Of a stretch of DNA of 64,000 nucleotides, positions 4,602 through 64,000 are shown one piece after another. Numbering within the stretch: the stretch's first letter is position 1; every line of letters begins with the position of its first letter. The notes under the pieces were generated by a model. That model searched no databases. It saw only the letters and a program-made list of their open reading frames with translations, and was not told the origin of the DNA. Origin of the DNA: Nonlabens ulvanivorans (GTDB taxonomy: Bacteria; Bacteroidota; Bacteroidia; Flavobacteriales; Flavobacteriaceae); assembly GCF_000755285.1 (NCBI RefSeq), contig NZ_BBMK01000006.1, positions 62,001 to 126,000 on the forward strand, in the 5' to 3' direction. The position numbers and the translations under genes were made by a program.

Positions 4602-7600
4602 TTATTTTTTCACAACTCTTATAGTAGAGATGTTTGAACCAGATTGAACTTCAAATAAATATAATCCAGTCGATAGGTCTGAAATATCAATTACGGCGTT
4701 CTCATCATTTACAAGAACTGTTTTCAATTGTTGTCCTAATAAGTTAATTACAGTTACACTATCGATAATCACAGTTCCATTAATATTCACAAGACCTGTC
4801 GAAGGGTTAGGGGAATAATTTAAGGTCTGCTTTCGCGAAAGCGTCTCCATTACTAGCCGTTGCATCAATTGTAAAATTATCTACAAAGAAATCATTATCC
4901 TCTGAATCAGGTGTAACACCGTTAGTACCCCAGAAAGCTAATCTTACTACACCTGAATAGGCTGAAAGATCGATTTCAATATTTTGACCTGTAGGCGCTA
5001 TCACAGAAGAATTGTTCCATACTTGAAGTGCTGTCCAAGTAAGCCCTGCATCATCAGAAATTAAGAACTGAACTTCATCATCAGTTCCTAAACTAGCCTG
5101 AATCCCTGTATCGTCACCAAATTCTGTTAAAGCGATATCAAACAACGCACTCATATTATGACCTGTAGCTCCTAAATCAAAATCAGGAGTCACTAACCAA
5201 TCGTTAATTGCACCAGTAGCCCATATATTAATTTTTGCAGCAGCACCATTAGAACCGCCAAAAACATTTGCATAATCATCTGTTTGCCATGCTCCATCAC
5301 TTCCATTTGGTCCTACAGCTACAGCAGTATCATCACCTTCTTCCCAACATGCTCCTGGGAAAGTAGTAAAGTCATTTCCTGCAGCACCTGATATTGCACC
5401 ATAAGGAGTTGGTAAAACATCACAAGGAGTAGTAAAGTTTAGTGGTCCAACCCAATCACTTAGGTTACCCATTCCACAATCAGCTCTTACATAGACTTCA
5501 TACGAAGTTATTGCTGTTAAACCTGCTTCTACTGCACTAGTAACAGTTACAGGCGTTCCTGCTACTGTTGGCACACCAGTACCTGCAGCTTGAACTACAT
5601 ATTCCCACGCTGTTTCTGTACCACCAGCATTCCATCCAAAATCAACTCCAGTTGCTGTAACTGAATTTAAAACTAATGAATTAGGTGCTAGACATCCATT
5701 AAACTCTTCAATAACAAAATTATCAATAGCAATGTCTGATTCAAAACCAGCTCCACGTTCACCTCTAAATCTAATCTGCACTGTTCCTCCACCATAAGGC
5801 GTTAATCCTAATGTTGAAGTTAAGTAAGCATCACCTTCTGCTGTTTGCTGTTGTCCATTTATAACAAGCACATCATTGATGAAACCTGTACCATCATTTA
5901 CATCTACATGTAAATTACCCATATTAATACCAAACATATGATAAGAGAATGTCAATGCCGGATTTGTTAATGCAGAAACATCCACAATAGGTGCGTATAA
6001 TTCTGCAATATCACCAAGATTACCACTTGATGTTTCTACATACATATAATTACCAGTATTTATTGCTGGTGCAGGACCTGTTCCACCAGAGGCTGTTAAA
6101 GTTGATGGTGCAGCAACCCAACCTAAACTAGCTGTATTTACAGCAGACCAGCAGTTCTCTATATTAAAGAAATCTGCAGCACCAGGGAAACCACTAGTAG
6201 TCGTTGTAAAAGTTTCAAAGTCTTCTGTATATGGAGCCGTTAAAGGATTACATACCGTTGTAAATGTTCTAACATCAGAAGCAACACTAGCGGCACCTGA
6301 ACAATCAAAAGTTACATAAACATCATAACACGTATTATCTGTTAATCCAGTAATAGTATATGGATTACCAGTTGCGACCACTATAGTTCCAGATCCTGGT
6401 GTAAATCCACAAGGCCCATATTCTATATTTACCGCTGTTGCAAGTGGCTCTGTAGTCCAAGAAATAGTAGCAGAATCATTACTAAATGAATCAATTGCAA
6501 CCATTAATGGATCAGGACATGTTGGTTGATCTTCAACAACCACATCATCAATAAACATTCTCCATCCATCAGTTGTTGATGGTGGAATTCTAAATGCGAT
6601 ATAAACCGGACCTGTGTAAGCAGATAAATCTATAATTTCTTCAATATAGGTTACATTACTAAACAGTGTAACTGGAAGTAAAGTGTTTGTAAAATCTGCA
6701 GCATTTGAACCTGTTGTAGAAAGTAACACTTCCATACTATTAGGCTCACCAGCACTTTGTACTCTATACTGGTATTTTAAACGTTGTGCACCAGTTAAGT
6801 TTAATTGTGGAGAAATCAAATAATCATCATCTGCACCACCATTAAAGTCTGTTGTTATTGCAGCAACTTGATCACCTTCAAACGGATTAGTACTGTAATC
6901 AATATTCCATTGATCTCCATCACCATTTGCATCTAATACTGTCCAGCATTGCTCTGTTGCACTGGCAGTATTAAAGCCTTCTTGGAATGGCACATTAAAC
7001 GCGACACATGCCGTACAGAAAGTTCCTGTTGTAGACCACGGGCTAAAACCAGTAGTACTACATACTGACCTTACATAGTAATCAAAACATTGATTAGGAG
7101 ATAATCCAGTTAATGTAAAAGGATTAGTAGTTGCAGAAACAATTGTTCCAGCACCAGTTCCTGGTAAAAAACCAACGGCTCCATATTCAATTTCCCATGC
7201 TGTAGATGCTCCTTGCTCTGTCCATGCAACATCAACATCTGTCGTTGTAATGTTTGAAGTGGATAACATCAATGGTTCATCACAATTAGGTATTGTTTCA
7301 AACCTAACATTATCAATATACATTCTCCATCCATCAGTTGTTCCTGGCGGAATCCTCCAAGCTATATAAACATCACCAGTATAAGCTGATAAGTCAATTG
7401 ACTCTGTCATATAGGTAACATTTGCAAAGTTAGTAACTGGCAACAATTGAGTAGTAAAATCTGCTGGTGCATTTGTAGCTGTTGAGATCAGAACTTCCAT
7501 ATCATTAGGCTCACCTGCACTTTGTACTCTGTAGTCATAACGAACTCTTTCATTACCCGTTAATGTAATCGCTGGAGAGATCAAATAATCATCGTCTGCT

Positions 7601-10427: not shown

Positions 10428-10442
10428 CGCTTTCGCGAAGCG
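10428..10442. repeat. Dispersed palindrome copy 2 (one base short)
   Basis: CGCTTTCGCGAAGCG, lacking one A of the consensus. It lies in the gap between the giant surface gene and fabI, next to the fabI terminator. The missing A may be an indel error. Confidence 0.75.
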
Positions 10443-10446
10443 TAAT

Positions 10447-13109: not shown

Positions 13110-14014
13110 CTAGACCTTAATATTACGCCATTTTGAGGACTGATTAGGAGCCAGTTGTTGTAACGCAGTCTTAAGCTCTCTAATATCGACAGCTGGTCCA
13201 TCAGAAAAAACACTCATGATTTCATCTGCTTTGGCGTCAAAAATAGCCTTTGTATTAAACTGTTAGGTCTGCGGCTATTAAGAGCTTTTAATTTTAAGAT
13301 TTCAGCACTTATTAAAAGCTTTGCTTTTTTCTGATCATCAGCAAATGAATCCATTCCTTTACTGTGATATCCATACAAAACTTCTCTATATTCTTTAAAA
13401 GTTTGAGAAAGCATATCATCATTTAATTGAAAACGCGTTCCCTGACCATCAGTAGCCTTCCATCCTACAGAATTACTTTGTTGTGCTAAACTAACAATGC
13501 GTTGTGCCTCGATGTGATGCTCTTGACCACCATTAAGAGAAAACGTATCTCCATCTATACCTAACATGGTATAAATATAGAATGAAATCAATGAGGTTAA
13601 ATTATTTTCATACTGATTTGCATTGTAAAAAAACGGCGCATATTCTAAATATTCAAACTCAATATTAGAATCCTTAAAATTGAAAATAGGAGATGAATAA
13701 GAAGAATTAAATACCGGTCTAGAAAGCGAAATCTGTAAATTACCCTTAAAGCGATCATTATCATAATCTGTAATTACAAAAACAATCGAACAATTAATTT
13801 TTTCTTCTTCTCTATAATCTTGATCTGACCACTTAGTATTATTGATAAACTCCTGCATAGAAGTCTCCAAAGTTCTAAAAATGGTCTGATTAGGTTGTGC
13901 TACATTTTGCGCATTGACTTGCACCACAGCATTAAATTCTTGTGCATGAGTCGTCCCCATGATGAATAAGACTAATAGCGGTATTATTTTAAAGAGTTCT
14001 TTTAATAACTTCAT
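13110..14014 (-). CDS. DUF4835 family secreted protein (frameshifted in this sequence)
   Basis: A Bacteroidota-specific protein of unknown function, about 301 residues after correction. The start at 14014 gives signal peptide MKLLKELFKIIPLLVLFIMGTTHAQ; the longer frame from 14083 lies inside coaBC and is rejected. The body holds the family's CSIVFVITDYDNDRFKGN region and a C-terminal LNSRRPNSLIQRLFFDAKADE. Near the end five A (13239-13243) stand where six are needed. Restoring one base carries the frame to TAG at 13110 with the ending SKWRNIKV. It overlaps coaBC by 26 bp and precedes recN. Localisation is probably the periplasm or outer membrane. Confidence 0.85.
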
Positions 14015-15200
14015 TAACGATATCTTTTGCCACCTCAGTTTTAGGTTTTGTTTCAAAAACAATTGTGTTTTGATCCCTATCAATCAGTGTTATTTTATTT
14101 GTGTCTTTACCAAATCCTGCACCTTTATCGCGCGTAGAATTCAATACAAGCAAATCTGTATTTTTCTTTTTCGCTTTCGCGAAAGCGTGCTCCAGCTCAT
14201 TTTCCGTCTCTAGAGCAAACCCAACTAGATAAGGACGTTTATCCAATGAACCAACGCTAGCTAATATGTCAGGATTTTTAACCAATTCTATTGTTAACGT
14301 TTCTGACTTCTTTTTTATTTTCTGATTAGCAGGATTTATAGGTTTATAATCAGCTACAGCAGCACTAAATATAGCATAATCTACTTTATCTATATTTTCA
14401 TGTACATGATCGTACATTTCTTGAGCAGTCTTAACGTCAACTCTATGAATTAAATGATGGTCAGTCAATACGTGGCTAGGTCCCATAATTAGAATGACCT
14501 GCGCACCTTGAGAAGCCATTTCAAAAGCCAACGCAGCACCCATTTTACCACTACTATGATTTCCTATAAATCGCACAGGATCTATAGCCTCATAAGTAGG
14601 ACCAGCTGTAATAAGAGATATTTTTCCCCTTAAAGGCAATTGCGACTCAATATCACTCTCAATAAAGGTAACAATTTCCTCAGGCTCGGCCATACGACCT
14701 TCTCCACTTAAACCACTAGCCAATTCACCTGTTCCAGCAGGTATCATTTTATTACCATAAGATGCTAACTGATCAAAATTGTACTGTGTAGACGGATGCT
14801 TGAACATATCCAAATCCATTGCCGGAGCAAAGTAAACTGGACATTTTGCACTACAATAAACAGCCAATAGAAAATTATCAATATTTCCAGACACCATTTT
14901 ACTCATGGTATTTGCAGTCGCAGGAGCAATTATCATGTAATCTGCCCACAGACCTAATTCAACATGATTATTCCATGTATCATTTTCATCATCTTCATTT
15001 GTGAAAGACGACAAAACAGGATTTTTCGAAAGTGTAGATAAAGTTAAAGGTGTTACAAACTCTCTAGAAGATGGAGTCATAACGACCCTAACAGTGGCGC
15101 CCGCTTTAATAAGCAGGCGCACAAGGTAAGTTGTTTTGTAAGCAGCAATACCACCAGTAATACCTAGCAATATATTTTTACCACTTAAAACCGACATCAT
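13989..15200 (-). CDS. coaBC: Bifunctional phosphopantothenoylcysteine decarboxylase / phosphopantothenate-cysteine ligase
   Basis: Two consecutive steps of coenzyme A synthesis in the cytoplasm. The N-terminal flavoprotein half shows GGIAAYK, the His-containing NHVELGLWADYMIIAPATAN segment and PAMDLDM. The C-terminal synthetase half shows TAGPTYEAIDPVR, HSSGKMGAALA and KNPDIL. The 403 residues are normal for the family. A dispersed palindrome is embedded near the C-terminus and read as HAFAKAK. It lies 4 bp from rpoZ, in the block bamD-rpoZ-coaBC-DUF4835-recN that recurs in Flavobacteria. Confidence 0.95.
   Translation of the reverse strand: MMSVLSGKNILLGITGGIAAYKTTYLVRLLIKAGATVRVVMTPSSREFVTPLTLSTLSKNPVLSSFTNEDDENDTWNNHVELGLWADYMIIAPATANTMSKMVSGNIDNFLLAVYCSAKCPVYFAPAMDLDMFKHPSTQYNFDQLASYGNKMIPAGTGELASGLSGEGRMAEPEEIVTFIESDIESQLPLRGKISLITAGPTYEAIDPVRFIGNHSSGKMGAALAFEMASQGAQVILIMGPSHVLTDHHLIHRVDVKTAQEMYDHVHENIDKVDYAIFSAAVADYKPINPANQKIKKKSETLTIELVKNPDILASVGSLDKRPYLVGFALETENELEHAFAKAKKKNTDLLVLNSTRDKGAGFGKDTNKITLIDRDQNTIVFETKPKTEVAKDIVNEVIKRTL
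14172..14187. repeat. Dispersed palindrome copy 3
   Basis: Perfect CGCTTTCGCGAAAGCG inside coaBC, read as AFAKA. Confidence 0.9.
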
Positions 15201-17883: not shown

Positions 17884-18670
17884 ATGAAAACATCTATTTA
17901 TAAGCGACTAGGAAAGGCTTTTTTTCTACATCGCTTTCGCGAAAGCGATATTAATCACAACCTCGTGTAAATCAGATCATTTACAACTCACCAAAGTATC
18001 GAGCTCGCAGACTCACATTGATAGCACACTACAAAGCGTTGCACAAATAGATGAGTATATCGCACCTTTCAAAAAATCCCTGGACGCTCAAATGGATGAA
18101 CAATTAAGCTTCAATCCAGTATCAATGAATAAAAACGATTATAAGTACAACACTCCTATCGGTAACATGCTTGCAGCAATCGTACGAGAACAAGGAGCTC
18201 CTATTTACAAGTCTCGTACTGGAAAAGACATAGATGTGGTTTTACTTAATCACGGTGGTATTAGATCAGGAATGCCCGCTGGACCGGTAACTATGCGTCG
18301 TGCCTATGAAATAATGCCGTTTGATAATGAAATAACCATCGTTGAACTTACTGGCGAGAAGATGAATGAATTAATCAACTACCTTATTGATCGTAAAAGA
18401 GCTCATCCCATTGACGGAATGCAAATTATTTTAAACGCAGACAACAGCGTTAATAAGGTTTCTATACAAAACAAGCCGCTGGATAAGGATAAAACATACA
18501 CAGTAGCAACTAGCGATTACTTGTATAGCGGTGGTGATGACATGAGCTTTTTTAAAGATGCGCCAATGGTGAAAATAGATTACAAAATACGTAATGCGAC
18601 TATCGATTACTTTAAGAAAGTGGACACAATTAAATTTGAACGTGATAACCGATTTGAGGTTCTCGATTAA
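17884..18670 (+). CDS. 5'-nucleotidase C-terminal-domain lipoprotein (frameshifted near its start)
   Basis: This is the substrate-binding C-terminal domain of 5'-nucleotidase/UshA proteins, here a separate gene of about 261 residues. Motifs include NHGGIRSGMPAG, MPFDNEITIVELTG and SDYLYSGGDDM. The frame breaks at seven T (17919-17925). Six T join MKTSIYKRLGKAFF to a lipoprotein signal ending TTSCKSD. A perfect dispersed palindrome encodes IAFAKAI inside that signal. The partner metallophosphatase follows 11 bp downstream, so the two halves probably act together on extracytoplasmic nucleotides. The N-terminal reconstruction is less certain than the domain. Confidence 0.85.
17932..17947. repeat. 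Dispersed palindrome copy 4
   Basis: Perfect 16-mer inside the signal-peptide region of the 5'-nucleotidase C-domain gene, read as AFAKA after frame correction. Confidence 0.9.
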
Positions 18671-22263: not shown

Positions 22264-23059
22264 ATCTAGTGATACCTTTTTCGGGAAAAGCAGCGTCATA
22301 GATGAATGCAGATTCATCTATTTCTGTAAAACAACTTATCACCTTGGCTTGATCACTATAAATCAACTTATCATTCTCATCAAGTCTGATGTATAAAATG
22401 TAAATTTCCTCACCACCACCACACATTCCTCGGCCATTACCACCAGGTTTAGACGGTACAGAAATATCTAATAGTAGATGATTGACATCGTCTACTATTT
22501 TATGGCTTATAACATCAACAGCATAAGCATACGAGAAATCTAACGCTCCTAGATCTAAAATAATCTGTTCATCTCTAGTTAGGTAAACTTCTTGACTACC
22601 TAGTCCCCCAGAATTGTTCTTGTGGATTACCTTCAAACCAAGTTTTTAATATCGTATTTGAATTGCTTTTATGCCATTTCAAATCATTGAAAATACCGTT
22701 CGCTGCAGTAGTTTCAAAGACCTCATCATAATTTAATACCTGACAAGCATACTCTTCATCAACTTCTGTTTCAAAATCACCATCATATTTGGCATATATT
22801 TTAAAAGACTCTTCTTCAGGATAGACGGAATAATAGAAAAGTATCGGAATAGACTCTGTGCTATTATCATATTTATACCAGCCTGTAAATTCCTGTTCAT
22901 AATCGCAATAACCTACACTTTCCACGTACATAGTTATGGGGTATTCATCGATGAACCATGTAATAACATCGTATTATTAGGGATAATTTTTGAAGAATAG
23001 GTTTGCGCTTTCGCGAAAGCGAAACTTAACAACACCCATAATAAAAACACCTTTTTCAT
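22256..23059 (-). CDS. Secreted protein of unknown function (two apparent frameshifts)
   Basis: About 267 residues after correction. The start at 23059, 4 bp after ligA, gives signal peptide MKKVFLLWVLLSFAFAKAQ, in which the dispersed palindrome encodes FAFAKA. An indel near 22968-22979 is needed to continue into WFIDEYPITMYVESVGYC. A five-C run at 22605-22609 should be four (QFWGLGSQEVYL). The C-terminal part has KPGGNGRGMCGGGEE. No family is recognised. Cysteines and the signal suggest a periplasmic or extracellular location. The N-terminal join is the weaker of the two repairs. Confidence 0.6.
23006..23021. repeat. Dispersed palindrome copy 5
   Basis: Perfect 16-mer at the end of a signal peptide, read as FAFAKA just before the likely cleavage site AKA-Q. 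Confidence 0.9.
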
Positions 23060-23062: not shown

Positions 23063-25145
<2,083 letters not shown>

Positions 25146-25173: not shown

Positions 25174-27465
25174 ATGAGCGCTAGATTTCTAATTCTTTGT
25201 AGTTTGATATTAACACTGTTTTCATGTGCTGAGCCTCAGGTAGAATTATTGAGTCCGTCCATTATACCAGCGCCTCAATCTTTGCAAGTAAATCCTGGAC
25301 ACTTCACTATTAATGAGAAAACTACGTTGAGTAATAATGATGATTTTACTGCTTCTCATGATTATCTCACAACGTTTTTAGAACGAGCCACTGATCGCAC
25401 ATGGAAAACAGAATACAGCGAGACGAACTCGATAATTCTGGAATACGATGATAGTATTTCATCAAAAGAAGGTTATTCTATTGAAAATAACGAGCAAAAT
25501 ATTACCATAAAAGCCAGTAGCGATGCAGGTGCTTTCTATGCTGTACAATCTCTCATACAATTAATGCCGGTAGATCTAAATAACATAACCGAAATTCATA
25601 TTCCAGCAGTCACGATAAAAGATGAACCACGTTTTAAATATCGTGGTATGCACCTCGATGTGTCACGTCATATGTATGATGTAGAGTTTATCAAGAAATA
25701 CATCGACGCAATGGCCATGCTCAAGATGAACAACTTTCACTGGCATCTTACAGATGATCAAGGCTGGCGCATCGAGATCAAGAAATATCCACGATTACAA
25801 GAAATAGCCGCTTATCGCGACAGTACTTTATTGGGTCATTATAACGATACTCCACATCAGTATGATAGTAAAAAGTACGGTGGTTATTATACACAAGAAG
25901 AAGTGCGTGAGGTGATCGCTTTCGCGAAAGCGAGACACATCAACGTCATCCCAGAAATAGAAATGCCAGGTCATGCGCAAGCCGCTATCGCTGCCTATCC
26001 AGAATTGGGTTGTACCGGAGAAAATGCCAAAGTCGCTATGAAATGGGGGGGCGTTTTTGAAGACATCTACTGCCCTAGCGAAGAAACTTTTACATTCCTA
26101 GAAAACGTACTGGACGAAGTGGTGGAATTATTCCCGTCAAAATACATTCACATAGGTGGCGATGAAGCACCTAAAACACAATGGAAAAGCAGTCCCATCG
26201 CTCAACAAGTCATTAAAGAAAACGGATTGAAAGACGAGTATGAATTACAATCCTATTTTATCCAGCGCATGGAAAAATACTTGAATTCCAAAGGTCGCAA
26301 CATCATAGGCTGGGATGAAATTCTGGAAGGTGGATTGGCGCCTAACGCAACGGTAATGAGTTGGCGTGGTTTAGAAGGCGCTATCGAGGCTGCAAAAGCT
26401 GGTCACGATGTAATCATGACACCTACTTCGCACGCTTATTTTGATTACTATCAAAGTGAAAATGATGATGAACCACTCGCGATAGGCGGATTTTTACCGC
26501 TTGAGAAAGTGTATTATTTTAATCCTATTCCTGAAGAATTGAGCGATGAAGAAGCTACTCATGTTTTAGGCGTTCAAGGAAATGTATGGACAGAATATAT
26601 GACAACGAGTGATCAGGTGGAATACATGGCTTTTCCTCGCATGCTGGCGATGAGCGAAGTAGCATGGAGTGCAGACGAAAATAAAAACTATGACAGTTTT
26701 ATAAATCGCGTGGAATATTTTCATAAACGATTAGATGCGATGGATATTAATTATGCCAATCATTTACATGAAATTGAAGGAAAGCTGAATAGTAATCAAG
26801 AATATGAATTAAGTACCAAAACCTTAGGAAAAGAAATCAGATTTACAACTGATGGCTATGAACCTGACTCATCCTCTAAAGCATATGAATCTCCTATTCC
26901 GTTTACGGCAGACATGACCTTAAAAGCTCAAGTTTTTGATGATGATGAACCACTCGGTCGTTTATTCACTCAAGAATTCCTCTACCATAAAGGTGTAGGC
27001 GCAACAATTAGTATCAATAAAGAGCCACATAAATCTTATCCTGGAAGTGGTGCCGCTGGATTGATTAACGGTATTAAAGGAAGTAATTCCCGTTATGGAG
27101 ATAGTGAATGGTTGGGATTTTGGGGAGAAGATATTGAAATCGAAATCGAGTTTGAAACTGAAGTTGAATTGGATGAAATTGAGTTACGATTTTATAATGC
27201 GCCTGGTCAGTGGATTTATTCACCTGAAAGATATGAAATTGTTTTGAAGACAGATTTTGATGAAACTGTAATTGACAGAATGGATGTAAAAAATAATTCC
27301 AATAGCATTTTTGAAGTGAATCATAAATTATTCACTCCAAAGGCATTTACACCAAAATATAAAAAAATGACAATTAAAATCCCAAATTACGGCATCATCC
27401 CAGACGGAAATCAAGGTGCAGGAAATAAAGCGTGGACTTTTATAGACGAAATCATCATCAAATAA
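25174..27465 (+). CDS. Beta-N-acetylhexosaminidase, GH20 lipoprotein
   Basis: Removes terminal GlcNAc/GalNAc from glycans. 763 residues with lipoprotein signal MSARFLILCSLILTLFSCAE. An N-terminal GH20b-type domain precedes the catalytic barrel. The barrel shows RGMHLDVSRH, NNFHWHLTDDQGWRIEIK, the catalytic pair Asp330-Glu331 in HIGGDEAP, and GWDEILEGG. A C-terminal chitobiase-type domain and a discoidin-like module follow. Seven G at 26045-26051 encode KWGGVFEDIYCP, where relatives usually have KWGVFED. It overlaps no neighbour; cutC starts 1 bp after its stop, then a GH2 enzyme, so glycan breakdown on the cell surface is likely. Confidence 0.93.
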   Translation: MSARFLILCSLILTLFSCAEPQVELLSPSIIPAPQSLQVNPGHFTINEKTTLSNNDDFTASHDYLTTFLERATDRTWKTEYSETNSIILEYDDSISSKEGYSIENNEQNITIKASSDAGAFYAVQSLIQLMPVDLNNITEIHIPAVTIKDEPRFKYRGMHLDVSRHMYDVEFIKKYIDAMAMLKMNNFHWHLTDDQGWRIEIKKYPRLQEIAAYRDSTLLGHYNDTPHQYDSKKYGGYYTQEEVREVIAFAKARHINVIPEIEMPGHAQAAIAAYPELGCTGENAKVAMKWGGVFEDIYCPSEETFTFLENVLDEVVELFPSKYIHIGGDEAPKTQWKSSPIAQQVIKENGLKDEYELQSYFIQRMEKYLNSKGRNIIGWDEILEGGLAPNATVMSWRGLEGAIEAAKAGHDVIMTPTSHAYFDYYQSENDDEPLAIGGFLPLEKVYYFNPIPEELSDEEATHVLGVQGNVWTEYMTTSDQVEYMAFPRMLAMSEVAWSADENKNYDSFINRVEYFHKRLDAMDINYANHLHEIEGKLNSNQEYELSTKTLGKEIRFTTDGYEPDSSSKAYESPIPFTADMTLKAQVFDDDEPLGRLFTQEFLYHKGVGATISINKEPHKSYPGSGAAGLINGIKGSNSRYGDSEWLGFWGEDIEIEIEFETEVELDEIELRFYNAPGQWIYSPERYEIVLKTDFDETVIDRMDVKNNSNSIFEVNHKLFTPKAFTPKYKKMTIKIPNYGIIPDGNQGAGNKAWTFIDEIIIK
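25917..25932. repeat. Dispersed palindrome copy 6
   Basis: Perfect 16-mer in the GH20 gene, read as IAFAKAR within a barrel helix. Confidence 0.9.
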
Positions 27466-27466: not shown

Positions 27467-28198
27467 ATGTTACTAGAAATCTGCGCATCCAACTACCAAA
27501 GTGCTGTAAACGCTCAAAAAGCTGGTGCACATCGCATAGAATTATGTAGTGAATTAGGTACTGGTGGCATTACACCTAGTTATGGATTGCTTAAAAAAGT
27601 GATGGAAGAACTCACCATTCCCGTAATGGTATTGATTCGTCCACGATCTGGGAATTTTGTGTACAGCAATGCCGATTTTGATATCATGAAACGTGATATA
27701 GAGCTATCTAAAGAATTAGGTTGCGCAGGAATTGTTTCTGGTGTATTGACCGCAGATTTTAAAATTGACATCAAGCGTACTAGCGAACTCATTGAATTAG
27801 CACGACCATTATCGTTTACTTTTCACAGAGCCTTTGACCATATTATAAATCCAGAACAAGCCGTTGTGGATTTAGTGAATTTAGGCGCAAAACGTATCCT
27901 TACTTCTGGACAGCATTCTAAAGCTATTGATGGAATTGATAATCTAAAACACTACCAGAAACTAGCAGGAGATGAACTAATCATCTTACCTAGTGGTGGA
28001 ATTAATGCTGGTAATTGTTCCGCTTTCGCGAAAGCGAATTTCAAAGAAATTCACGCTAGTGCAACAGAAATCATCCAACAAACTAACGAAGAAAAAGTTC
28101 CCATGAATTCGCCAAAATTTCTTCAAGAAAATATCGAAGTCGTTTCTAGTAAAAACAACATTGCTGCTTTACTCAAAAAATTGAAAAATGAGGATTAG
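27467..28198 (+). CDS. cutC: CutC family protein
   Basis: A cytoplasmic TIM-barrel protein of 243 residues. Matches to CutC include EICASNYQSAVNAQKAGAHR, ELCSELGTGGITPS, VMVLIRPRSGNFVYS, TFHRAFDH and ILPSGGI. The family was named for copper tolerance, but that role is disputed and a sugar-related enzyme role has been suggested. It lies between two glycosidase genes, 1 bp after the GH20 gene and overlapping the GH2 gene by 11 bp, which favours co-translation. Confidence 0.92.
   Translation: MLLEICASNYQSAVNAQKAGAHRIELCSELGTGGITPSYGLLKKVMEELTIPVMVLIRPRSGNFVYSNADFDIMKRDIELSKELGCAGIVSGVLTADFKIDIKRTSELIELARPLSFTFHRAFDHIINPEQAVVDLVNLGAKRILTSGQHSKAIDGIDNLKHYQKLAGDELIILPSGGINAGNCSAFAKANFKEIHASATEIIQQTNEEKVPMNSPKFLQENIEVVSSKNNIAALLKKLKNED
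28021..28036. repeat. Dispersed palindrome copy 7
   Basis: Perfect 16-mer in cutC, read as SAFAKAN. Confidence 0.9.
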
Positions 28199-30692
28199 TA
28201 TATTATTAGTTTTAGTGATATTCATAAGCTCTTGTAAACAAGAACGTTCTAATGTAGAGCGCCAGTATTTAGAAAACAATTGGTTGCTTCACAAAGCTGC
28301 CGACTATAGTTTGATATCAGATTCGGTTCAAATTCCATCTACAGTTCATAAAGAGTTGTTGCCTTTTATCAAACATCCTTTTCAAGGAAATAATGAAGAC
28401 AGTTTACAATGGATTACAGAAGAAGACTGGATTTACGAAACGGTTTTCACAGTTAATAAAGAAACACTCGCCAAAGAAAACATCATTTTGAATTTTGAAG
28501 GAATAGACACTTATGCCAGTATAGAATTGAATGGTCATGAAATTCTTGAAACAAATAACGCTTTTCTCAACTGGCAAGTAGATGTTAAACCATTTCTTGA
28601 AGAAGAAAACGAACTATATGTAACCATCAAATCACCTTTAGAAATAGAAGAACAAAAAGCCGCTGCAAATCCATATACCTTACCAGAAGGCAACCGAGTT
28701 TATACGCGTAAAGCGCAATATCAATACGGTTGGGATTGGGGGGACCAAAACTCAACACCATGGGAATATGGAAACCGGTTTATCTAGAGGCTTATGATGA
28801 TTTTAAAATCGATGATGTTTACATCAAACAGAATTATGTAAAAGATTCCACGGCAAATCTAACGGCGCAAATCAAGCTCTCTGATAAGCGCACAGAATTA
28901 CTACATTATAAAATCAAAGTTAACGATAGCCTCTACTGGGACCAAGATTACCAGCCCAAGGCTCAAGAAGATGAGTTTGAAATTCATTTTGAAATTCCTC
29001 AAGTGCAACTGTGGTGGCCGCACCACATAGGTGAGCCCTATTTGTATGATATTGAAGTGATGGTTTCTAAAGAAGGTAAACTTATAGATTCTCAAAAATT
29101 GAAAACTGGAATACGTACCATAGAGCTTGTGAACGAGCCCGACGAACATGGAACTAGTTTCTTTTTTAAGGTAAACGACGTTCCTGTTTACATTAAAGGT
29201 GCTAATTACATTCCGCAAAACTCGATGCAGGATCTGGTTACTGATGATCATTATGAAAAATTGCTGAGTGATGTCAAGGAAGCTAACATGAACATGCTAC
29301 GCGTTTGGGGCGGCGGGATTTATGAGAACGATATTTTTTATGAGAAATGCGATGAAAAAGGAATCTTAGTCTGGCAAGACTTTATGTTTGCCTGCGCGAT
29401 GTATCCTGGAGATGCACGCTTTCGCGAAAGCGTAACCAATGAAATTACTCAACAAATCACTAGATTGAGAAATCACAGCAGTATTGCCTTGTGGTGTGGA
29501 AATAATGAAACTAGTGAGGCGTGGCATAATTGGGGGGGCTGGCAAGAAGGAAGATCCCAAGCCGAACGCGATAGTATCTGGGAAGATTATCGAGCCGTAT
29601 TTCAAATCGCAATGCCTAAATACGTGAGCGAACTCACCAACGAACCTACTGGGAAAGCTCGCCAGAATACGGTCGTGGAAATCCTAAATATGAATTTGAA
29701 GGCGATGCACATGACTGGCGTGTATGGCATGATGCTTATCCATTTGAGCATTTTGAAGAACACGTACCGCGATTTATGAGTGAGTTTGGTTTTCAATCGC
29801 ATCCATCTTATGAGGCGATACGATATATCAATAATGACGGAACTATTAATATCAAGTCAGATGATTATTCCTCACATCAAAAACACGCTCGTGGAAATGA
29901 ATTGATAAGAGAATACATGCAACGCGATTTCCCAGTTCCTACAAATGATAGAGATTATGTGTATGTAAGTCAGCTATTACAAGCTTATGGAATGTCCAAA
30001 GGTATCCAAGCGCACCGTCGAGCTAGACTTATAACATGGGAACGCTCTACTGGCAACTCAACGATTGCTGGCCTGTGGTAAGCTGGTCCAGTATCGATTA
30101 TTTCGGTAACTGGAAAGCCTTGCATTATCAAGTAAAACGTGATTTTGAGAATGTGTTGATTAGTAATGTCGTGGAGAATGATACGTTGAAGACTTATGTC
30201 GTAAATGACAATATGGAAACTGAGGTTGGAGACTTTGAAATACTCTTTAAAGATTTTTATGGGAAGGTCTTGTATAGAAAATTTGAAGATAGTAGCACAT
30301 CGTTTGTGGATGGTGAATCTAGTAAAATCATAAATACTACCGATTTAAAAACATTACACCTTGATTACAGCAACGTTTATGTAGTTACTAGGTATAGCGA
30401 TAAAGAAGTGATATCATTTTTAGAAAAACGCAAAAAATTAAAGTTAGAACCTACACTGATTTCCATTAAATCAGAACGAATAGCAGAAGGGTTTAAACTA
30501 ACTATAGGGACAAAATATTTTGTGAATGATGTATTTCTTAACACAGAAACTAAAGGTCATTTAAATGATAATTTTTTTAGCTTAGAACCTAACATTGATA
30601 AAATCATCATATTTAAAACAGATAGTGATATTGAACCGAAGTTTACTTACAAGACGTTAAATGATATGATTTGGTTAAATGCTACAGATTAA
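28188..30692 (+). CDS. Beta-mannosidase, GH2 family lipoprotein (three apparent frameshifts)
   Basis: Releases terminal beta-mannose, for example from N-glycan or mannan fragments. About 834 residues after correction. Lipoprotein signal MRISILLVLVIFISSC, GH2 sugar-binding domain, immunoglobulin-like domain, then the catalytic barrel. The acid/base Glu is in CGNNETSEAWHNWG and the nucleophile Glu in FMSEFGFQ. Breaks: six G at 28738-28743 where four restore the family motif WDWGPKLNTMGIWKP; one T missing at 29650 (PTWESSPEYGRGNP); one C missing near 30028 (RPYNMGTLYWQLND). Seven G at 29532-29538 give NWGGWQ where NWGWQ is usual. It overlaps cutC by 11 bp. Confidence 0.9.
29417..29432. repeat. 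Dispersed palindrome copy 8 (read in a second frame)
   Basis: Perfect 16-mer in the beta-mannosidase gene. Unlike most copies it is read as A-R-F-R-E-S-V. Confidence 0.9.
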
Positions 30693-32465: not shown

Positions 32466-32473
32466 TACCTTTG
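32466..32473 (+). promoter_or_regulatory. -7 promoter element directly before ribD
   Basis: TACCTTTG (TAnnTTTG) ends 6 nt before the ribD ATG at 32480. Transcription would start at or very near the start codon, suggesting a leaderless or near-leaderless mRNA. Confidence 0.5.
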
Positions 32474-32479
32474 CTAGAG

Positions 32480-33493
32480 ATGACTATAGAAGAAAAATAC
32501 ATGCAGCGCTGCTTGCAACTAGCTCAAAATGGTTTGGGAACGACTTATCCTAATCCGCTAGTGGGAAGTGTAATTGTTTCTGAAAATGATGAGATTATAG
32601 GTGAAGGATGGCATCTCAAATCTGGAGAACCGCATGCTGAGGTAAACGCTGTACGTGATGCAGAGAAAAAGGGTTATGATGAAGACGCTTTCGCGAAAGC
32701 GACAATATACGTCAATCTAGAACCATGTTCACATACCGGTAAAACACCACCTTGTGCATCGATGATCGTCCAAAAAGACTTTAAAAAAGTAGTCGTAGGA
32801 ACGTTAGATCCACATGATAAGGTTGCCGGAAAAGGTGTCGCCTTATTAAAAGAAGCTGGAATTGAAGTCGTAGTAGGCGTCTTAGAAAATGAATGTAACG
32901 AACTCAACAAGCGATTCTTTACATTTCACAGAAAACAACGTCCCTACATCATCTTAAAATGGGCTGAAACCTCTGATGGTTTTATTGCACCTAAAAATAA
33001 GAACGAGCAAAAACCAGTGTGGATTACTAATGCCCATTCTAGACAGTTATCCCATCAACTGAGAGCCCAGGAAAATGCGATTCTAGTAGGCGCTAGAACA
33101 GTTGTCGATGACAACCCATCGCTCACCTGTCGCGACTGGTCTGGTGATCATCCCATTAGAGTTGTTTTGGATTCTAGAAATAGCATCACATCTGACTATC
33201 AAGTTATGGACGCTATTGCGCCTACTTTAAAACTTACATTGAGCTCTTCTAATATCCTAGAAATTATAGACGAGCTTTATAGGAATAACATTCAGTCTGT
33301 AATTATTGAAGGTGGAACAACAACCATTCAATCTTTTATTGATGCTGGTTCATGGGATGAAGCTTATCAATTTATGGGCACAAGTATTTTATTTCACAAA
33401 GGTTTAAAAGCACCTAACTTAAAAGGCGACTACGATATTAAAACACGAGAGATTATTGATAGCGATGTGCTTAAAATATACAGAAAAAAATGA
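32480..33493 (+). CDS. ribD: Bifunctional riboflavin deaminase/reductase RibD
   Basis: Catalyses the pyrimidine deamination and ribosyl reduction steps of riboflavin synthesis. The N-terminal deaminase shows the zinc ligands in PHAEVNA and PCSHTGKTPPC. The C-terminal reductase starts near RPYIILKWAETSDGFIA and includes ILVGARTVVDDNPSLT and IIEGGTTTIQSF. About 337 residues from the ATG at 32480; an upstream TTG falls inside the promoter element and is not preferred. A dispersed palindrome encodes DAFAKAT in the deaminase half. The stop overlaps the next gene by 4 bp. Confidence 0.95.
   Translation: MTIEEKYMQRCLQLAQNGLGTTYPNPLVGSVIVSENDEIIGEGWHLKSGEPHAEVNAVRDAEKKGYDEDAFAKATIYVNLEPCSHTGKTPPCASMIVQKDFKKVVVGTLDPHDKVAGKGVALLKEAGIEVVVGVLENECNELNKRFFTFHRKQRPYIILKWAETSDGFIAPKNKNEQKPVWITNAHSRQLSHQLRAQENAILVGARTVVDDNPSLTCRDWSGDHPIRVVLDSRNSITSDYQVMDAIAPTLKLTLSSSNILEIIDELYRNNIQSVIIEGGTTTIQSFIDAGSWDEAYQFMGTSILFHKGLKAPNLKGDYDIKTREIIDSDVLKIYRKK
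32686..32701. repeat. Dispersed palindrome copy 9
   Basis: Perfect 16-mer in ribD, read as DAFAKAT. Confidence 0.9.
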
Positions 33494-34356
33494 TTTGGCT
33501 TGTTTTAAGTATTACCACATCTAGTTTTCTATACGTGATCTTCAAGTACTTTGAAGTATTTAAAATCAACACCTTACACGCTATTATCATTAATTATATT
33601 GTGGCTTGTATTACCGGTTTTGTTGCTTATGGTAGTGTACCAAATTTTGAGCAAATTATAAAAGCAGACTGGTTGTATTATGCCCTATTTTTAGGAGCTC
33701 TGTTTATCTTCATCTTCAATATTATGGCACTTACCAGTCAAAAAAATGGACTGTCGGTAGCTGCCGTCGCAGGTAAAATGTCACTGGTTATACCGGTTAT
33801 TGCAGGCATATGGCTCTATGACGAGTCTATTGGATGGATGAAGATTGCGGGAATTTTACTAGCGCTAGTCTCCGTTTACCTGACTTCTATAAAAACTAAG
33901 AATGGCATACAGCTAGATAAACGATTACTTATATTTCCGATTATATTATTCCTAGGCAGCGGTATAATAGACACCACACTTAAATATGCCGAAAAGATGC
34001 ATGTACCAGTTGGTGAAGAACCACTTTTTAGTGCGATGTGTTTTGCAATGGCATTTCTTATAGGAATAGTCGTATTAATCTATGAAACTACTCAAAGAAG
34101 ATTATTGACTTTGCGCAGTATAATTGGAGGAATTGCTTTAGGGATTCCGAATTACTTCTCTATCTACTTTATTATAAAAACTCTTAAAAATGGAATGGAA
34201 AGTAGTGTGGTATATCCTATCAATCATGTCGGGACTGTACTTTTCACCTCTTTGTTAGGTATTGTCTTATTCAAAGAAAAATTGATCCCTAAAAACTACG
34301 TGGGAATTGTTGTGGCTATCGTTGCTATTGTGATGATTGCTTTCGCGAAAGCGTAA
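33490..34356 (+). CDS. EamA/DMT superfamily transporter
   Basis: A 288-residue inner-membrane protein with about ten hydrophobic segments in two EamA-like halves, each ending in a conserved pattern (KIAGILLALVSVYL and NYVGIVVAIVAIVMI). The substrate is unknown. It overlaps ribD by 4 bp, so a link to flavin or a precursor is possible but unproven. The last codons are formed by the dispersed palindrome (IAFAKA then stop), followed at once by a terminator. Confidence 0.85.
   Translation: MIWLVLSITTSSFLYVIFKYFEVFKINTLHAIIINYIVACITGFVAYGSVPNFEQIIKADWLYYALFLGALFIFIFNIMALTSQKNGLSVAAVAGKMSLVIPVIAGIWLYDESIGWMKIAGILLALVSVYLTSIKTKNGIQLDKRLLIFPIILFLGSGIIDTTLKYAEKMHVPVGEEPLFSAMCFAMAFLIGIVVLIYETTQRRLLTLRSIIGGIALGIPNYFSIYFIIKTLKNGMESSVVYPINHVGTVLFTSLLGIVLFKEKLIPKNYVGIVVAIVAIVMIAFAKA
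34338..34353. repeat. Dispersed palindrome copy 10 at a gene end
   Basis: TGCTTTCGCGAAAGCG (first base differs) forms the last codons of the DMT transporter, read as IAFAKA, with the stop codon directly after. Confidence 0.9.
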
Positions 34357-41278: not shown

Positions 41279-42322
41279 TTATAAATTTAAACTCTTAGTA
41301 TCCCATATTGAGATATCGTTACATTTTAAAGTGCCATTTTTTATTTCTAATGGCGCCTCAATATTATTAGTATATAAACCGCCGGTCCCTAATCCTTGTG
41401 GCATCATATTTCCTAGCGTGTAGGTAAATTGAGCAATTGCATTAAGACCTACATTAGACTCTAGTGCACTAGTCATCCACCAGCCAGCATTATTATTTCC
41501 TGCAATATTAATCCATTCTCTACAGCTTTGAAAACCACCAACTAACGCTGGTTTTAAAATAATGTATTGTGGCTTAATGGTTTCTAGGCAGCGTTGTTTT
41601 TCTTCAACATCATAAAGCCCGATAAGTTCTTCGTCTAGTGCTATGTCTATGGGTGATTTTTCACAAAGCGCAGCCATCTCCTGCCATTGTCCTTGTTGAA
41701 TAGGTTGCTCTATGCTATGTACTTTGTATTTAGCAAGCGCATCTAATTTACTCATGGCATTTTGAGAAGTAAAGGCTCCATTGGCATCTACTCTTATGGT
41801 TATTTCGCTTTCGCGAAAGCGAGACCTTACAGCATCTAGCAATTCTAATTCTTTCTGAAAGTCTATGGCGCCTATCTTAAACTTTATACAATCAAAACCG
41901 TTAGTTAGCTTTTCCTCAAGTTCCCGTAACATAAAGTCCTGATCGCCCATCCATACCAATCCATTAATATTGATGGTATCCATACCTTCTGTAAATAAAG
42001 ATGGGAAAAGTGTGAAAACATCAGATGATTGCAGGGATTTAATGGCCATTTCATAACCAAACAGAATAGAAGGCCATTCCTTTAACGCTACACATATATC
42101 AGAAGGTTTTAAATGAATATGATCACATAACCATTGTAATTTATCTTCATATCCTGGTCGATCATCTATAGATAATCCTTTAAATAAATTACATTCTCCG
42201 ATACCTTTTTTATCGCCATTGGAAAGGTATAGAAAATAGGTTTCTTTAATACGTAAAACACCTCGAGAAGTGCCGGCTGGACGCCTAAATTCTAATGTGT
42301 ATTTTTTAAATTGAGCTTGCAT
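41279..42322 (-). CDS. menC: O-succinylbenzoate synthase
   Basis: An enolase-superfamily dehydratase of menaquinone synthesis, 347 residues. Seen in order: capping domain, catalytic KFKIGA (K-x-K), metal-ligand strands RVDANGAF, SIEQP and ALDEELIG, and the second catalytic Lys in ILKPALVGG. A dispersed palindrome between the K-x-K and RVDANG strands is read as SRFRESE. It is the first gene of the menC-CPBP-menE unit. Confidence 0.93.
   Translation of the reverse strand: MQAQFKKYTLEFRRPAGTSRGVLRIKETYFLYLSNGDKKGIGECNLFKGLSIDDRPGYEDKLQWLCDHIHLKPSDICVALKEWPSILFGYEMAIKSLQSSDVFTLFPSLFTEGMDTININGLVWMGDQDFMLRELEEKLTNGFDCIKFKIGAIDFQKELELLDAVRSRFRESEITIRVDANGAFTSQNAMSKLDALAKYKVHSIEQPIQQGQWQEMAALCEKSPIDIALDEELIGLYDVEEKQRCLETIKPQYIILKPALVGGFQSCREWINIAGNNNAGWWMTSALESNVGLNAIAQFTYTLGNMMPQGLGTGGLYTNNIEAPLEIKNGTLKCNDISIWDTKSLNL
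41806..41821. repeat. Dispersed palindrome copy 11 (second frame)
   Basis: Perfect 16-mer in menC, read as R-F-R-E-S. Confidence 0.9.
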
Positions 42323-48089: not shown

Positions 48090-48104
48090 CGTTTCGCGAA
48101 AGCG
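48090..48104. repeat. Dispersed palindrome copy 12 (one base short, intergenic)
   Basis: CGTTTCGCGAAAGCG, lacking one C of the consensus, between the divergent DUF4442 and DUF4870 genes. Confidence 0.75.
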
Positions 48105-52925: not shown

Positions 52926-53475
52926 ATGTCTAGAACCTACATCAATCCTATCACAAAAGAACGCGCTACCATTCTTAAAACTAGCGCACAAACTAATGGA
53001 TCATACACTTACATAGAAGTAGAATTGCAGCCTGGTGGCGGTAATCCTATCCATTATCATCAACATTTTACAGAACAGTTTGAACCTATTGACGGTACCT
53101 TAGGCGTTCATTATTTAGGTAAAGAAATAAGCTTAAAACCTGGTCAAATATTTAAAGTACCCGTAATAGATAATCATCGTTTTTATAATCCAGGTGATCG
53201 GCCTATTATCTTTAGAGCAAAACTGGAACCTGGCCAGCCCGGATTTGAAAATTTCATGGCAGCACTTTTTGGATTGGTTAGTGATGGTAAAACTTTTGGA
53301 AAAAACCAGATTCCGTTCAATCCATTTTATGCTATAATTTTACTTAAATGGGGGCGATACTCAAGTAGATAGCTTATTCTTCAGGTTATTTAAACCTGTT
53401 TTGATATTACTGTATACGCTTTCGCGAAAGCTGGGATACGAAAAGAAATTGCTACACAAATATGTCATAGGTTAA
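52926..53475 (+). CDS. Cupin domain protein (one apparent frameshift)
   Basis: About 182 residues after correction. The cupin barrel motifs are GGGNPIHYHQHFTEQFEPIDG and PVIDNHRFYNPGDRPIIF (metal-binding His). A run of five G at 53350-53354 should be four; this restores KWGDTQVDSLFFRLFKPVL and an ordinary C-terminal hydrophobic tail ending at 53475. The palindrome copy 13 falls in that tail. The substrate is unknown. Confidence 0.8.
53417..53431. repeat. Dispersed palindrome copy 13 (third frame)
   Basis: CGCTTTCGCGAAAGC followed by T, in the restored end of the cupin gene, read as L-S-R-K-L. Confidence 0.85.
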
Positions 53476-57829: not shown

Positions 57830-58770
57830 ATGAATAGTATAACAGACCTCTTATTATTTAATCTGCTCTTAGAACAGGTTTCTCTTAAATTTAGAGAGAC
57901 TTATTCACCTCAACAGTCTATTATGAAAGATTGGAAAGGTCAAGACATCATCAATTTTCAAGATGATTTGAGGTCTAAAACAGGAAGCAGCGTCAGCGAA
58001 AAATGGTTCTACACGTATATAAAAAACGAGCCAGAAAAGTTACCTAGAATTGATATTCTCAATATGCTATCTGTATATATAGGATGTGATCATTGGTCCG
58101 CTTTCGCGAAAGCGAATGAAGACTACCTCATGCCCGATTATAGTACAGCTTTAAAGAAAGACACAAGTAGCTCCATTGAAAATGTTTTAAAGATTCTATT
58201 GAGGGTAATAATCACAATCGCAGGAATGGCTATCACTTATATAGTCCTGAGTAATAAAGAATATGATTACAACTTTTGCCTAAAGGATTTTTATAGAAAA
58301 GAGGCTATAAAAAATGTCCCATTTACGATTTACAGAATTAATACGAATCAAAAAGAACGAATTGAGGTTAACGAGGATGGTTGTTTTTCTGGGAAAAGTG
58401 ATTCTAAAAGCAATACATTCATCATTGAATCTCCATACTATAAAAATGATACATTAAGTCTTAATCTAGAACGTCTAGTAAGTAGAGATATTTATTTAAA
58501 ACCTGATGATTATGCTTTAATGCTCGATTACTATTCTAATGGCGATATCAAAAGTTTAAAAAACCGTAGAAGACAACTGGACCAACTATTACATAAGGAT
58601 GTTATTATTATGGAACTATTACCTTATGAAATAGGTGTAACCATATACGACAAACAACAATTTATTGATAAACTCACCACTCCTACCCAAAGCTTGAAAA
58701 ACTATTAATAGTTGATACTGAATATGCTGGTGAACAAATCAAGAAAATAAAATACCGCATTAAGTCATGA
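57830..58770 (+). CDS. Membrane protein with N-terminal HTH-like domain, unknown function (one apparent frameshift)
   Basis: About 313 residues after correction. The N-terminal 100 residues (LEQVSLKFRETY, LRSKTGSSVSEKWFYTYIKN, LPRIDILNMLSVYIGCDHW) resemble helical regulator-like domains common in Bacteroidota. A single membrane helix follows (ILLRVIITIAGMAITYIVLS), then a presumed periplasmic beta-rich domain with an EDGCFSGKS segment. Five A at 58697-58701 should be six, giving SLKKLLIVDTEYAGEQIKKIK and a stop that overlaps the next gene as ATGA. The layout suggests a one-component membrane signal protein; this is inference. Confidence 0.65.
58099..58114. repeat. Dispersed palindrome copy 14
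   Basis: Perfect 16-mer in the HTH-like membrane protein gene, read as SAFAKAN at the end of the N-terminal domain. Confidence 0.9.
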
Positions 58771-60662: not shown

Positions 60663-60682
60663 CGTTTAACATTATTATTAAA

Positions 60683-61710: not shown

Positions 61711-61736
61711 ATTGACATATACCATACCATATGATT

Positions 61737-62327: not shown

Positions 62328-62413
62328 AACATTAATTTTTGGTTGTTCATCTGTTATCAAAAAGCATGCTAAACTAATAGCGATTAAAAAAACACGTTAC
62401 TGAACATATATTT

Positions 62414-62421
62414 TATCTTTG
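62414..62421 (+). promoter_or_regulatory. -7 promoter element of the DUF4197 gene
   Basis: TATCTTTG (TAnnTTTG), 15 nt before the ATG at 62437. Confidence 0.55.
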
Positions 62422-62436
62422 TAAAAAATATTATAA

Positions 62437-63145: not shown

Positions 63146-63237
63146 ATGTAACAGCCTTTTTACAATCAATTAACCTGTGTGAAAGAATATTATAGAATTT
63201 TGCCCTGCTGTTGAATCGTTATAATGGGTTAGTTAAT

Positions 63238-63272
63238 AAAGGAAACCGTTTATATTAATGTTTTCCTTTTTT
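63238..63272 (+). terminator. Terminator-like hairpin after the DUF4197 gene
   Basis: AAAGGAAAC and GTTTTCCTTT pair with one bulged base; a T run follows. It lies about 93 bp beyond the DUF4197 stop. Confidence 0.6.
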
Positions 63273-63354
63273 ATTTAAAATCTCACGCAACCTTTTAAGG
63301 TTATCGACGTCTAGTAAGTGTATGTTTCGACATCATTAAGGGGGGGATTTTAAG

Positions 63355-63388
63355 AAGGCTGTTTCAATTGAAGCAGCCTTTTTTTTAT
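63355..63388 (+). terminator. Rho-independent terminator of an unidentified transcript
   Basis: AAGGCTG(TTTC) / (GAAG)CAGCCTT stem followed by eight or more T. No gene ends just upstream of it, so it either backs up the previous terminator or ends a small RNA. Confidence 0.75.
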
Positions 63389-63507
63389 GTAAAATGAATT
63401 GTGAACAAACTCACAATTGGTATTTTGTTAACCGTTATTAACTTTAAATGGGGGGGAAAATAATAGACAGCCTAGAATTAATTTTGTTGTCTAAATGATA
63501 AGATAAA

Positions 63508-63678
63508 ATGAGTGACCGCACTTTAGATTTATATAAGAAAGAGCGTCTATACTGTTCTATGATTAGAAAGTCTTTTGACGTTGCATTAAAAGATAGAAAT
63601 CGCAGTAAAGCTATTCTCAAAAAAGCAGAACAGCTTAAAGCAGAAATTATACAGCTCAAACAATCACTGTTTAATTAG
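63508..63678 (+). CDS. Small basic helical protein (56 residues)
   Basis: MSDRTLDLYKKERLY... with Lys/Arg-rich, heptad-like helix (KAILKKAEQLKAEIIQLKQSL). It starts at ATG 63508 and stops at 63678, 8 bp into the convergent substrate-binding gene. No family recognised. The even charge pattern and intact frame support a real gene, but it could also be spurious. Confidence 0.45.
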   Translation: MSDRTLDLYKKERLYCSMIRKSFDVALKDRNRSKAILKKAEQLKAEIIQLKQSLFN

Positions 63679-64000
63679 ACCTTAACTTTTTAAAATAGTT
63701 AGGTGCATCTATTAAACGGCTTCCGTACCATGAAAAATACGTCCCATCAACTGTTAGTAACATGGGACTTTTTAATTCCGCTTTCGCGAAAGCGTCTTCA
63801 ATATCCTTCTTATCTGACTCACTGAAGGAATAAGGTTCTGATGAAAACAGAATAACTTCAGGATTTAAATTAACAATGTTTTGTAGTGTCAATTCTGGAT
63901 AGCGACTTGCACCATCCATGATGTTTTTATAACCACCGCGCTCCATGATATCGTGAATAAAGGTATCGCTACCGACCGTCATATATGGATCTTTCCATAT
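63671..64000 (-). CDS. ABC transporter substrate-binding protein, BtuF/FhuD-like (5' part beyond window)
   Basis: The C-terminal 109 residues of a helical-backbone metal-receptor protein. The segment MTVGSDTFIHDIMERGGYKNI, then LTLQNIVNLNPEVILFSSEP and a C-terminal YFSWYGSRLIDAPNY are typical of periplasmic binding proteins for cobalamin or iron complexes. The ligand cannot be told from this part. Its start lies outside the window. A dispersed palindrome is read as DAFAKAE. Confidence 0.85.
   Translation of the reverse strand: MWKDPYMTVGSDTFIHDIMERGGYKNIMDGASRYPELTLQNIVNLNPEVILFSSEPYSFSESDKKDIEDAFAKAELKSPMLLTVDGTYFSWYGSRLIDAPNYFKKLRSN
63779..63794. repeat. Dispersed palindrome copy 15
   Basis: Perfect 16-mer in the substrate-binding protein gene, read as DAFAKAE. 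Confidence 0.9.

Follow-up and report, generated by a model that had tools for sequence, protein, structure and literature searches.

To our knowledge, only two bacterial families, both of them proteobacterial, are known to have uptake sequences with dialects. Those of the Pasteurellaceae are not insertions, sit at very stable sites, fall into subclade types and have AT-rich flanks, according to the accessible part of PMC1626085; their even spacing was noted by Karlin et al., cited in PMC1939737, which in its available portion calls the spacing less even than compaction needs. The DNA uptake sequences (DUS) of the Neisseriaceae are bound by the pilin ComP (PMC3868556 and PMC12061091, both in excerpt). 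Here we describe a 16-base palindrome, centred on TTCGCGAA and with the 14-base core GCTTTCGCGAAAGC, that is dispersed over a 64-kb stretch of Nonlabens ulvanivorans DNA (contig NZ_BBMK01000006.1, positions 62,001 to 126,000; this whole stretch is hereafter the window). We put at roughly 0.5 the probability that this Nonlabens-Dokdonia palindrome is a DNA-uptake (self-recognition) sequence, one dialect among several in lineages of the Flavobacteriaceae.

The Nonlabens motif shares with the uptake signal sequences (USS) of the Pasteurellaceae (Hin and Apl types) abundant non-inserted copies, long-stable sites, a clade-specific consensus and AT-rich flanks (PMC1626085, same portion), and with the DUS dialects the occurrence of several related words in one family, which in the Neisseriaceae are spread along its phylogeny (PMC3630211, partial text). 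It differs from the USS in belonging to a different phylum, in the perfect palindromic symmetry and strict 14-base core of its Nonlabens-Dokdonia form, and in having few one-mismatch forms in Nonlabens; furthermore, the three Nonlabens searched have no match to the pilus platform family PF00482. We take the DUS sequences themselves to be unlike the Nonlabens motif and its related words.

A preliminary description of the window had listed fifteen copies, thirteen with the 14-base core and two one base short. All fifteen are present, with positions within 1 base, spaced over 4828-63794, and the division into 13 and two holds; the exact 16-mer is found in ten copies and three more differ only at the outer base. 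Scanning the window with up to three mismatches gave 15 matches vs 0.04 per shuffle, a set that includes a three-mismatch match at 24394, taken as chance, and omits the copy at 10428. Copies confined to the window, or counts near expectation, had been set beforehand as refuting outcomes; neither was found, as the organism's own genome (3.09 Mb, 87% complete) holds 372 exact 16-mers, with 0 for the reversed control, and 487 copies of the core. An origin by chance or base composition is rejected by the shuffle scan, the reversed control and the mismatch counts. At gathering cut-offs, Rfam gave 0 matches in the window.

Within the genus, all 23 Nonlabens genomes searched hold 180-737 exact copies, and 11 of the 174 non-genus genomes in the same search hold 1-12. 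In a sample of 397 genomes of the family, more than 100 exact copies occur outside the genus only in G305 (630) and G289 (153); the genera g247 and g231 carry the word, and 42 of the 397, lying outside g1, g247 and g231, hold 1-13 exact copies, and 22 of these a single one. A phylum sample of 247 genomes, which was without other genomes labelled g1, g247 or g231, has any core in 15 of the 246 other genomes (1-4 each), and only the window's own genome exceeds 4. The exact word also occurs three times in 21 kb at each of two Dokdonia loci (L049, L058), which together with g247 and g231 rules out restriction to one genus. In the LigA tree, the window groups with N. tegetincola (100/100; LigA identity 84%), with Dokdonia as sister to Nonlabens (99/94; bootstrap not fully settled). 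The Nonlabens phage P12024S has 0 copies in 35.7 kb, and viral avoidance rests on this one phage; the 16-mer was found in 41 viral-contig stretches with hosts not established. A plasmid search with a tandem of the motif as query yielded nothing beyond short matches of low score, all in other phyla.

In other genera, exact 16-mers lie in gene clusters that by eye resemble RND metal-efflux operons (L007, L009, L011, L012 and L144, with the neighbourhood also at L008), and among ten loci inspected spacings of 2446-2481, 933 and 3460 bp recur between them in several genera. These copies may mark DNA that has left the Nonlabens-Dokdonia lineage by transfer.

The history of the sites is one of substitution and high stability. 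Across six genomes in the window region, 328 site pairs were aligned, of which 312 keep TTTCGCGAAA, 6 are substituted and 10 are gapped; the gapped pairs comprise 4 at a place where G016 has longer sequence, 3 with a one-base deletion at 10428 and 3 at one badly aligned noncoding place. None of the 16 motif-less pairs has a clean motif-sized gap, and an insertion element is accordingly rejected. From the window side, with 14 of the 15 copies entered, 50 of 52 sites are kept in alignments that are 68-100% identical. When two species were compared at sites picked in a third, the core differed at 60 of 6541 positions (0.9%) vs 34070 of 201586 (17%) in flanks 61-300 bp away. The direction of change at substituted sites is not polarised.

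Two neighbouring sites were followed through the genus. The exact motif at 32686..32701 (this and all other copies being without strand) lies in the ribD gene 32471-33493, read as AFAKA, and 10 of the 22 genus genomes aligned there keep its core, G010 being without an alignable RibD match; three other genomes carry one- or two-base core variants (G005 CGCTTTCGCAAAAGCG, G006 CGCTTTCGTGAAAGCG and G013 CGCTTTTGCAAAAGCG). Among the 12 core-less RibD rows, indels are lacking nearby in 8 and are short and in frame in 4, and no row shows a clean empty site. The same-length replacement suggested in the preliminary description is thus borne out, both by these variants and by the 328 pairs; its idea that the motif spreads as an element under selection for harmless peptides finds no support, as no insertion was seen and the sites stand in conserved orthologous places. 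The copy at 34338..34353 (TGCTTTCGCGAAAGCG) forms the last codons of gene 33490-34356, and 21 of the 22 aligned genus genomes retain its core: the codons GCT TTC GCG AAA GCN recur unaltered in 21 of 22 species, although identity of the encoded protein to its window counterpart ranges over 50-95%. Since the codons are fixed despite the divergence of the protein, the constraint acts on DNA.

The other window copies were compared in fewer aligned relatives. Further AFAKA copies are the TGCTTTCGCGAAAGCG form at 4828..4843 near the 3' end of gene 4807-8511 (kept in 3 of 3) and exact motifs at 14172..14187 in the CoaBC gene 13989-15200 (core kept in 5 of 5), 25917..25932 in gene 25174-27465 (5 of 5), 28021..28036 in gene 27467-28198 (3 of 5; substituted in G002, longer unrelated sequence in G016), 58099..58114 in gene 57830-58708 (kept in the 1 relative aligned) and 63779..63794 in gene 63671-63982 (core kept in 3 of 3). 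Exact motifs read as RFRES lie at 29417..29432 in gene 28730-29779 (5 of 5) and at 41806..41821 in the o-succinylbenzoate-synthase-like gene 41279-42322 (3 of 3). Outside genes are the exact motif at 17932..17947, kept in 4 of 4 and intact amid flank indels between species, the CGCTTTCGCGAAAGCT form at 53417..53432 (3 of 3), and the copy at 10428..10442, which is the motif minus one A (CGCTTTCGCGAAGCG) and has an intact counterpart in G016, G011 and G001. Coding status is uncertain for the exact motif at 23006..23021, found only in a 41-amino-acid open reading frame (ORF; AFAKA) and kept in 5 of 5, and for the motif minus one base at 48090..48104 (CGTTTCGCGAAAGCG), which falls in a 100-amino-acid ORF and is intact in 3 of 3 relatives. 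Because each has intact counterparts in three relatives, the copies at 10428 and 48090 would be either one-base deletions, i.e., fresh losses, or assembly errors. At the place of 28021, the longer unrelated G016 sequence that replaces the motif region carries TTCGACAAGCTCACTGTGACA and may be another dispersed repeat.

The ORF calls therefore leave 10 window copies clearly genic (8 AFAKA, 2 RFRES), 3 outside genes and 2 uncertain, fewer than the 13 coding copies first reported. The bias in frame use reported with them extends to six genome samples, orthologues included (98 AFAKA, 30 RFRES and 33 LSRK), and is read as reflecting that proteins best tolerate Ala-Phe-Ala-Lys-Ala. The statement that no gene holds two copies is true of the window and fails elsewhere, with one two-copy gene in 400 kb of G019 and three in 200 kb of G305. 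In G019, 81 placed copies fall in 75 kb outside genes vs 119 in about 709 kb of coding sequence, i.e., 1.07 per kb between genes vs about 0.17 within them; in G305, 19 of 44 copies lie outside genes, in about 9% of the sequence.

The regular spacing first noticed in the window is indeed more even than uniform placement (coefficient of variation, CV, 0.43; p 0.0007). Values of 0.37-0.39 (p < 0.001) were obtained in G011, G016 and G002, largely the window's orthologous region, and of 0.60 (p < 0.001) in G019; spacing is less even in G305 (CV 0.74, p 0.02). Forty 20-kb blocks of G019 average 5.1 cores per block with a dispersion index of 0.46 (p 0.0016), and the two blocks with one copy include one of low GC.

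The motif combines a strict core with soft surroundings. One-mismatch 16-mers differ at the outermost base in 55 of 68 cases (nine samples, some orthologous), which is why we treat the 14-mer as the strict unit. Perfect and one-mismatch cores number 205 vs 21 in 800 kb of G019, 33 vs 0 in G000 and G016 together and 44 vs 15 in G305, so that the fall-off with mismatches is graded in G305 and much steeper in Nonlabens. Beyond the core, C is scarce and T and G are frequent over about 20 bases on the 5' side of each strand: T occupies position -2 in 89% and T or G position -3 in 92% of 120 intergenic half-sites from G019 and G305, and C stands at 1-14% across positions -1 to -20. The trend is weaker in G289; it is found inside genes too, in all three frames, and is therefore not codon usage. 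The near flanks (1-18 bp) vary almost like distant ones (2649 of 16679 positions differ), and the preference is thus soft. A weak 3-base periodicity in the intergenic flanks of G019 and G305 (T p 0.018, keto p 0.036) is too weak for use.

Related words were sought within 80 named LigA loci, 75 of which were regrouped by genus. Strong iterated words were found in Nonlabens-Dokdonia, in Psychroserpens with Arcticiflavibacter, in Aequorivita and in Olleya. The Psychroserpens/Arcticiflavibacter word CTTCGGAAA occurs 10-12 times per 21 kb in three loci and 4 times in a fourth or fewer elsewhere, with 3 of 5 Psychroserpens loci showing it, and Psychroserpens is the best documented of the other genera; the Aequorivita word CTTCCGAAG, for which the documentation is thin, occurs 6-10 times per locus in four loci; and the Olleya word CTTTCGCGGA, thinly documented by 9 copies in three orthologous loci, 2-4 times per locus. 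Weak repeated words appear in Winogradskyella, Algibacter, Flavivirga and Lacinutrix. The search also picked up a tandem repeat in Flavobacterium poyangense (L111:178-4960), where 17 copies of ACTTTGACAACC stand mostly 237-240 bp apart.

Judged by their letters, the words of these genera look related, on a TTTC-CG-GAAA theme. The string TTCGGAA is common to Psychroserpens and Aequorivita, which are not sisters in the LigA tree; the carriers of each word cluster in that tree, with bootstrap not settled. A T-rich 5' flank is common to Psychroserpens and Olleya (n=9 and orthologous in Olleya), and the Aequorivita word has no clear flank preference. At the level of whole genomes, TCTTCGGAAA occurs 633 and 402 times in two Psychroserpens and 164 and 142 times in two Aequorivita (reversed controls 7-26), 81 times in Algibacter lectus (control 30), and 2-16 times in N. 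tegetincola (2), Dokdonia pacifica (8), three Olleya, Winogradskyella, Lacinutrix and NBU2973; it exceeds 200 copies in 11 of the 397 family genomes, and four Nonlabens have 0-3. Counted in connection with the Olleya word, CGCTTTCGCGGAA peaks at 53 per genome in the family scan, being found 25-53 times in G105, G267, G389, G252 and others (control 0) and 43 times in the window's own genome; genomes rich in it are possibly further dialects or relics.

Words of different genera also share places more often than expected between Aequorivita and Psychroserpens (29 of 120, 1.3 expected), Olleya and Psychroserpens (9 of 21, 0.1), Aequorivita and Dokdonia (10 of 92, 0.3) and Dokdonia and Psychroserpens (2 of 13, 0.02). 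Aequorivita and Olleya gave 1 of 135 (0.4 expected), and there was no co-location in the four Nonlabens pairs (0 of 79, 10, 13 and 21) or in Dokdonia-Olleya (0 of 13). As it comes from few distinct sites and orthologous loci, the co-location is only suggestive. One such place lies just beyond the matched LigA, where Dokdonia (L058, 11676) and Aequorivita and Psychroserpens (L071, 11680; L057, 11679) have their own words at the homologous position; in one further gene, which we presume to be PrmC/HemK-like, the own words of Olleya, Psychroserpens and Aequorivita co-locate.

An uptake sequence is the reading that we rank as most likely. It is favoured because the stability without insertion, the related words, the strict core with soft AT-rich flanks, the even spacing and the lack of orientation resemble the Pasteurellaceae/Neisseriaceae pattern. 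A putative DNA receptor at the cell surface or in the periplasm would recognise the site in double-stranded form, i.e., the 14-base core with its soft T/G-rich 5' flanks on both strands, and motif-bearing fragments would be taken in with preference. Single strands would next travel inward through ComEC and be recombined by DprA and RecA; ComEC and DprA are each present in 15 of 15 genomes checked, which speaks for this reading. Uptake bias and recombination together could give rise to new copies through point mutation at places where the protein tolerates it, bring damaged copies back to the motif and favour a density near one copy per fragment of a few kb. Riemerella columbina is reported to be transformable and to prefer its own DNA; the accessible part of the report identifies no uptake sequence and lists only A/T-rich frequent words (PMC7965970). 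A literature search made mostly without subscription papers did not find CTTTCGCGAAAG and found TTTCGCGAAA only in papers unrelated by title; judged mostly from listings, it returned nothing describing the Nonlabens/Dokdonia palindrome or a flavobacterial uptake sequence.

Several observations weigh against uptake. ComEC and DprA are found equally in genomes poor in the motif. PF00482 is absent from all three Nonlabens searched (G000, G019 and G502; other pilus families were not searched), from G305 and G289 and from one of two Olleya. It does occur in the other Olleya, in Dokdonia pacifica, in two Psychroserpens and in Aequorivita antarctica, and also in a Lacinutrix that has no strong word; it therefore does not track the motif. 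This matters as the known uptake receptors, in the portions of the literature available, are type IV minor pilins (ComP, with ComN predicted). Flavobacterium johnsoniae was not competent under the conditions of PMC7965970 (same partial text). The scarcity of one-mismatch forms in Nonlabens is steeper than the gradual pattern of known uptake sequences (PMC1939737, in part), which points to a stricter constraint than in known systems and would be explained equally by an intracellular binding protein; a palindrome is equally suited to an intracellular dimer. Furthermore, even spacing is not significant in G289 (CV 0.78, p 0.07), the intergenic excess is less than two-fold in G289 (5 of 34) and G011 (3 of 23), and CTTCCGAAG, dense near LigA, occurs only 8 times in 120 kb elsewhere in A. 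antarctica.

These points lead to the alternative that we rank next, and consider rather unlikely, namely an intracellular site, about one per 4-8 kb, at which a dimeric protein of the nucleoid, of segregation or of repair would organise or mark the chromosome, with lineage-specific protein-site dialects. The two-fold symmetric core under very strict constraint, the even spacing without an obvious chromosomal gradient (G019 samples) and the site-by-site stability would all suit such a protein. The motif resembles what we take to be the form of Noc/parS-type sites, i.e., 14-16-base palindromes with TTTC/GAAA arms, with the arm spacing shifted by one base. However, there are far more copies of the motif, no candidate protein was found, and matches to the ParB family PF02195 (1 each in G000, G305, G289 and G502, 2 in G019) do not track the motif; a Noc-like ParB paralogue is rejected on this ground. 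By our own arithmetic the core holds 28 bits, well above the roughly 12.5 bits needed for 500 sites in 3 Mb, and for several dialects to arise in one family, a protein would have had to change in concert with hundreds of sites.

A word of the HIP1 kind, kept by an orphan methyltransferase or by a repair bias acting on TCGCGA/CGCG, is improbable. The comparison with HIP1 of cyanobacteria, made in the preliminary description, holds loosely, in that both are highly iterated palindromes, and the Nonlabens motif is likewise genus-wide and mostly within genes; it breaks down at the sequence, GCGATCGC, which differs from the motif. HIP1 is associated with orphan methyltransferases (PMC4390886, the available text of which makes no mention of Bacteroidetes or Flavobacteri). 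The words of the other genera share no palindromic target with the Nonlabens motif, and elsewhere in the window TCGCGA shows no excess (8 further copies in 64 kb vs about 7 expected from base composition, own arithmetic).

We regard it as very improbable that the motif is a directional signal of the Chi or KOPS kind, serving a translocase. The T/G-rich 5' flanks would fit, as would the copy density, which is similar to that of Chi in E. coli. Against this, a palindrome is directionless, and the two non-palindromic words tested favour neither strand locally (30/30 over 7 short segments, heterogeneity p 0.49; 21/23 over 11, p 0.80). Sites for a transcription regulator, or terminators, are a still fainter prospect: the enrichment between genes in G019 and G305 is what they would predict, but most window copies lie inside genes, and density in G019 is alike across tandem (1.05 per kb), convergent (1.33) and divergent (0.98) gaps, although G305 leans to tandem gaps (16 of its 19 intergenic copies; others 2 and 1) and the pattern is thus not uniform. 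The T-rich side is also 5' and the A-rich side 3', the opposite of a terminator. Least probable of all is a mobile short palindrome of the REP, MITE or RPE type inserted into many genes, for which dispersed identical copies and a peptide-tolerant frame would speak, since the 16 motif-less pairs and 12 RibD rows lack a clean empty site and the copies stand in orthologous places.

Of the three roles offered earlier, the uptake signal thus fits best, the binding site for chromosome organisation comes next and the spreading element is not supported. Taking the uptake reading further, we tentatively propose, at clearly less than even odds, that the Flavobacteriaceae evolved self-DNA recognition with dialects separately from the Pasteurellaceae and Neisseriaceae, and that in Nonlabens it would work without a type IV pilus, via a putative outer-membrane machine whose receptor reads the palindrome as a dimer.

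Such an uptake system could bear on the self-preference of Riemerella columbina (PMC7965970, partial text), and placing the right word on donor DNA is suggested as an aid to transforming marine flavobacteria. Several dialects in one family could make the question of drive versus selection testable, and even with an intracellular function, hundreds of nearly invariant sites per genome demand explanation. If the uptake reading is true, the Bacteroidota would provide a third origin of uptake dialects, apparently free of the pilus platform in Nonlabens, and self-tagging of DNA would be a trait that evolves repeatedly.

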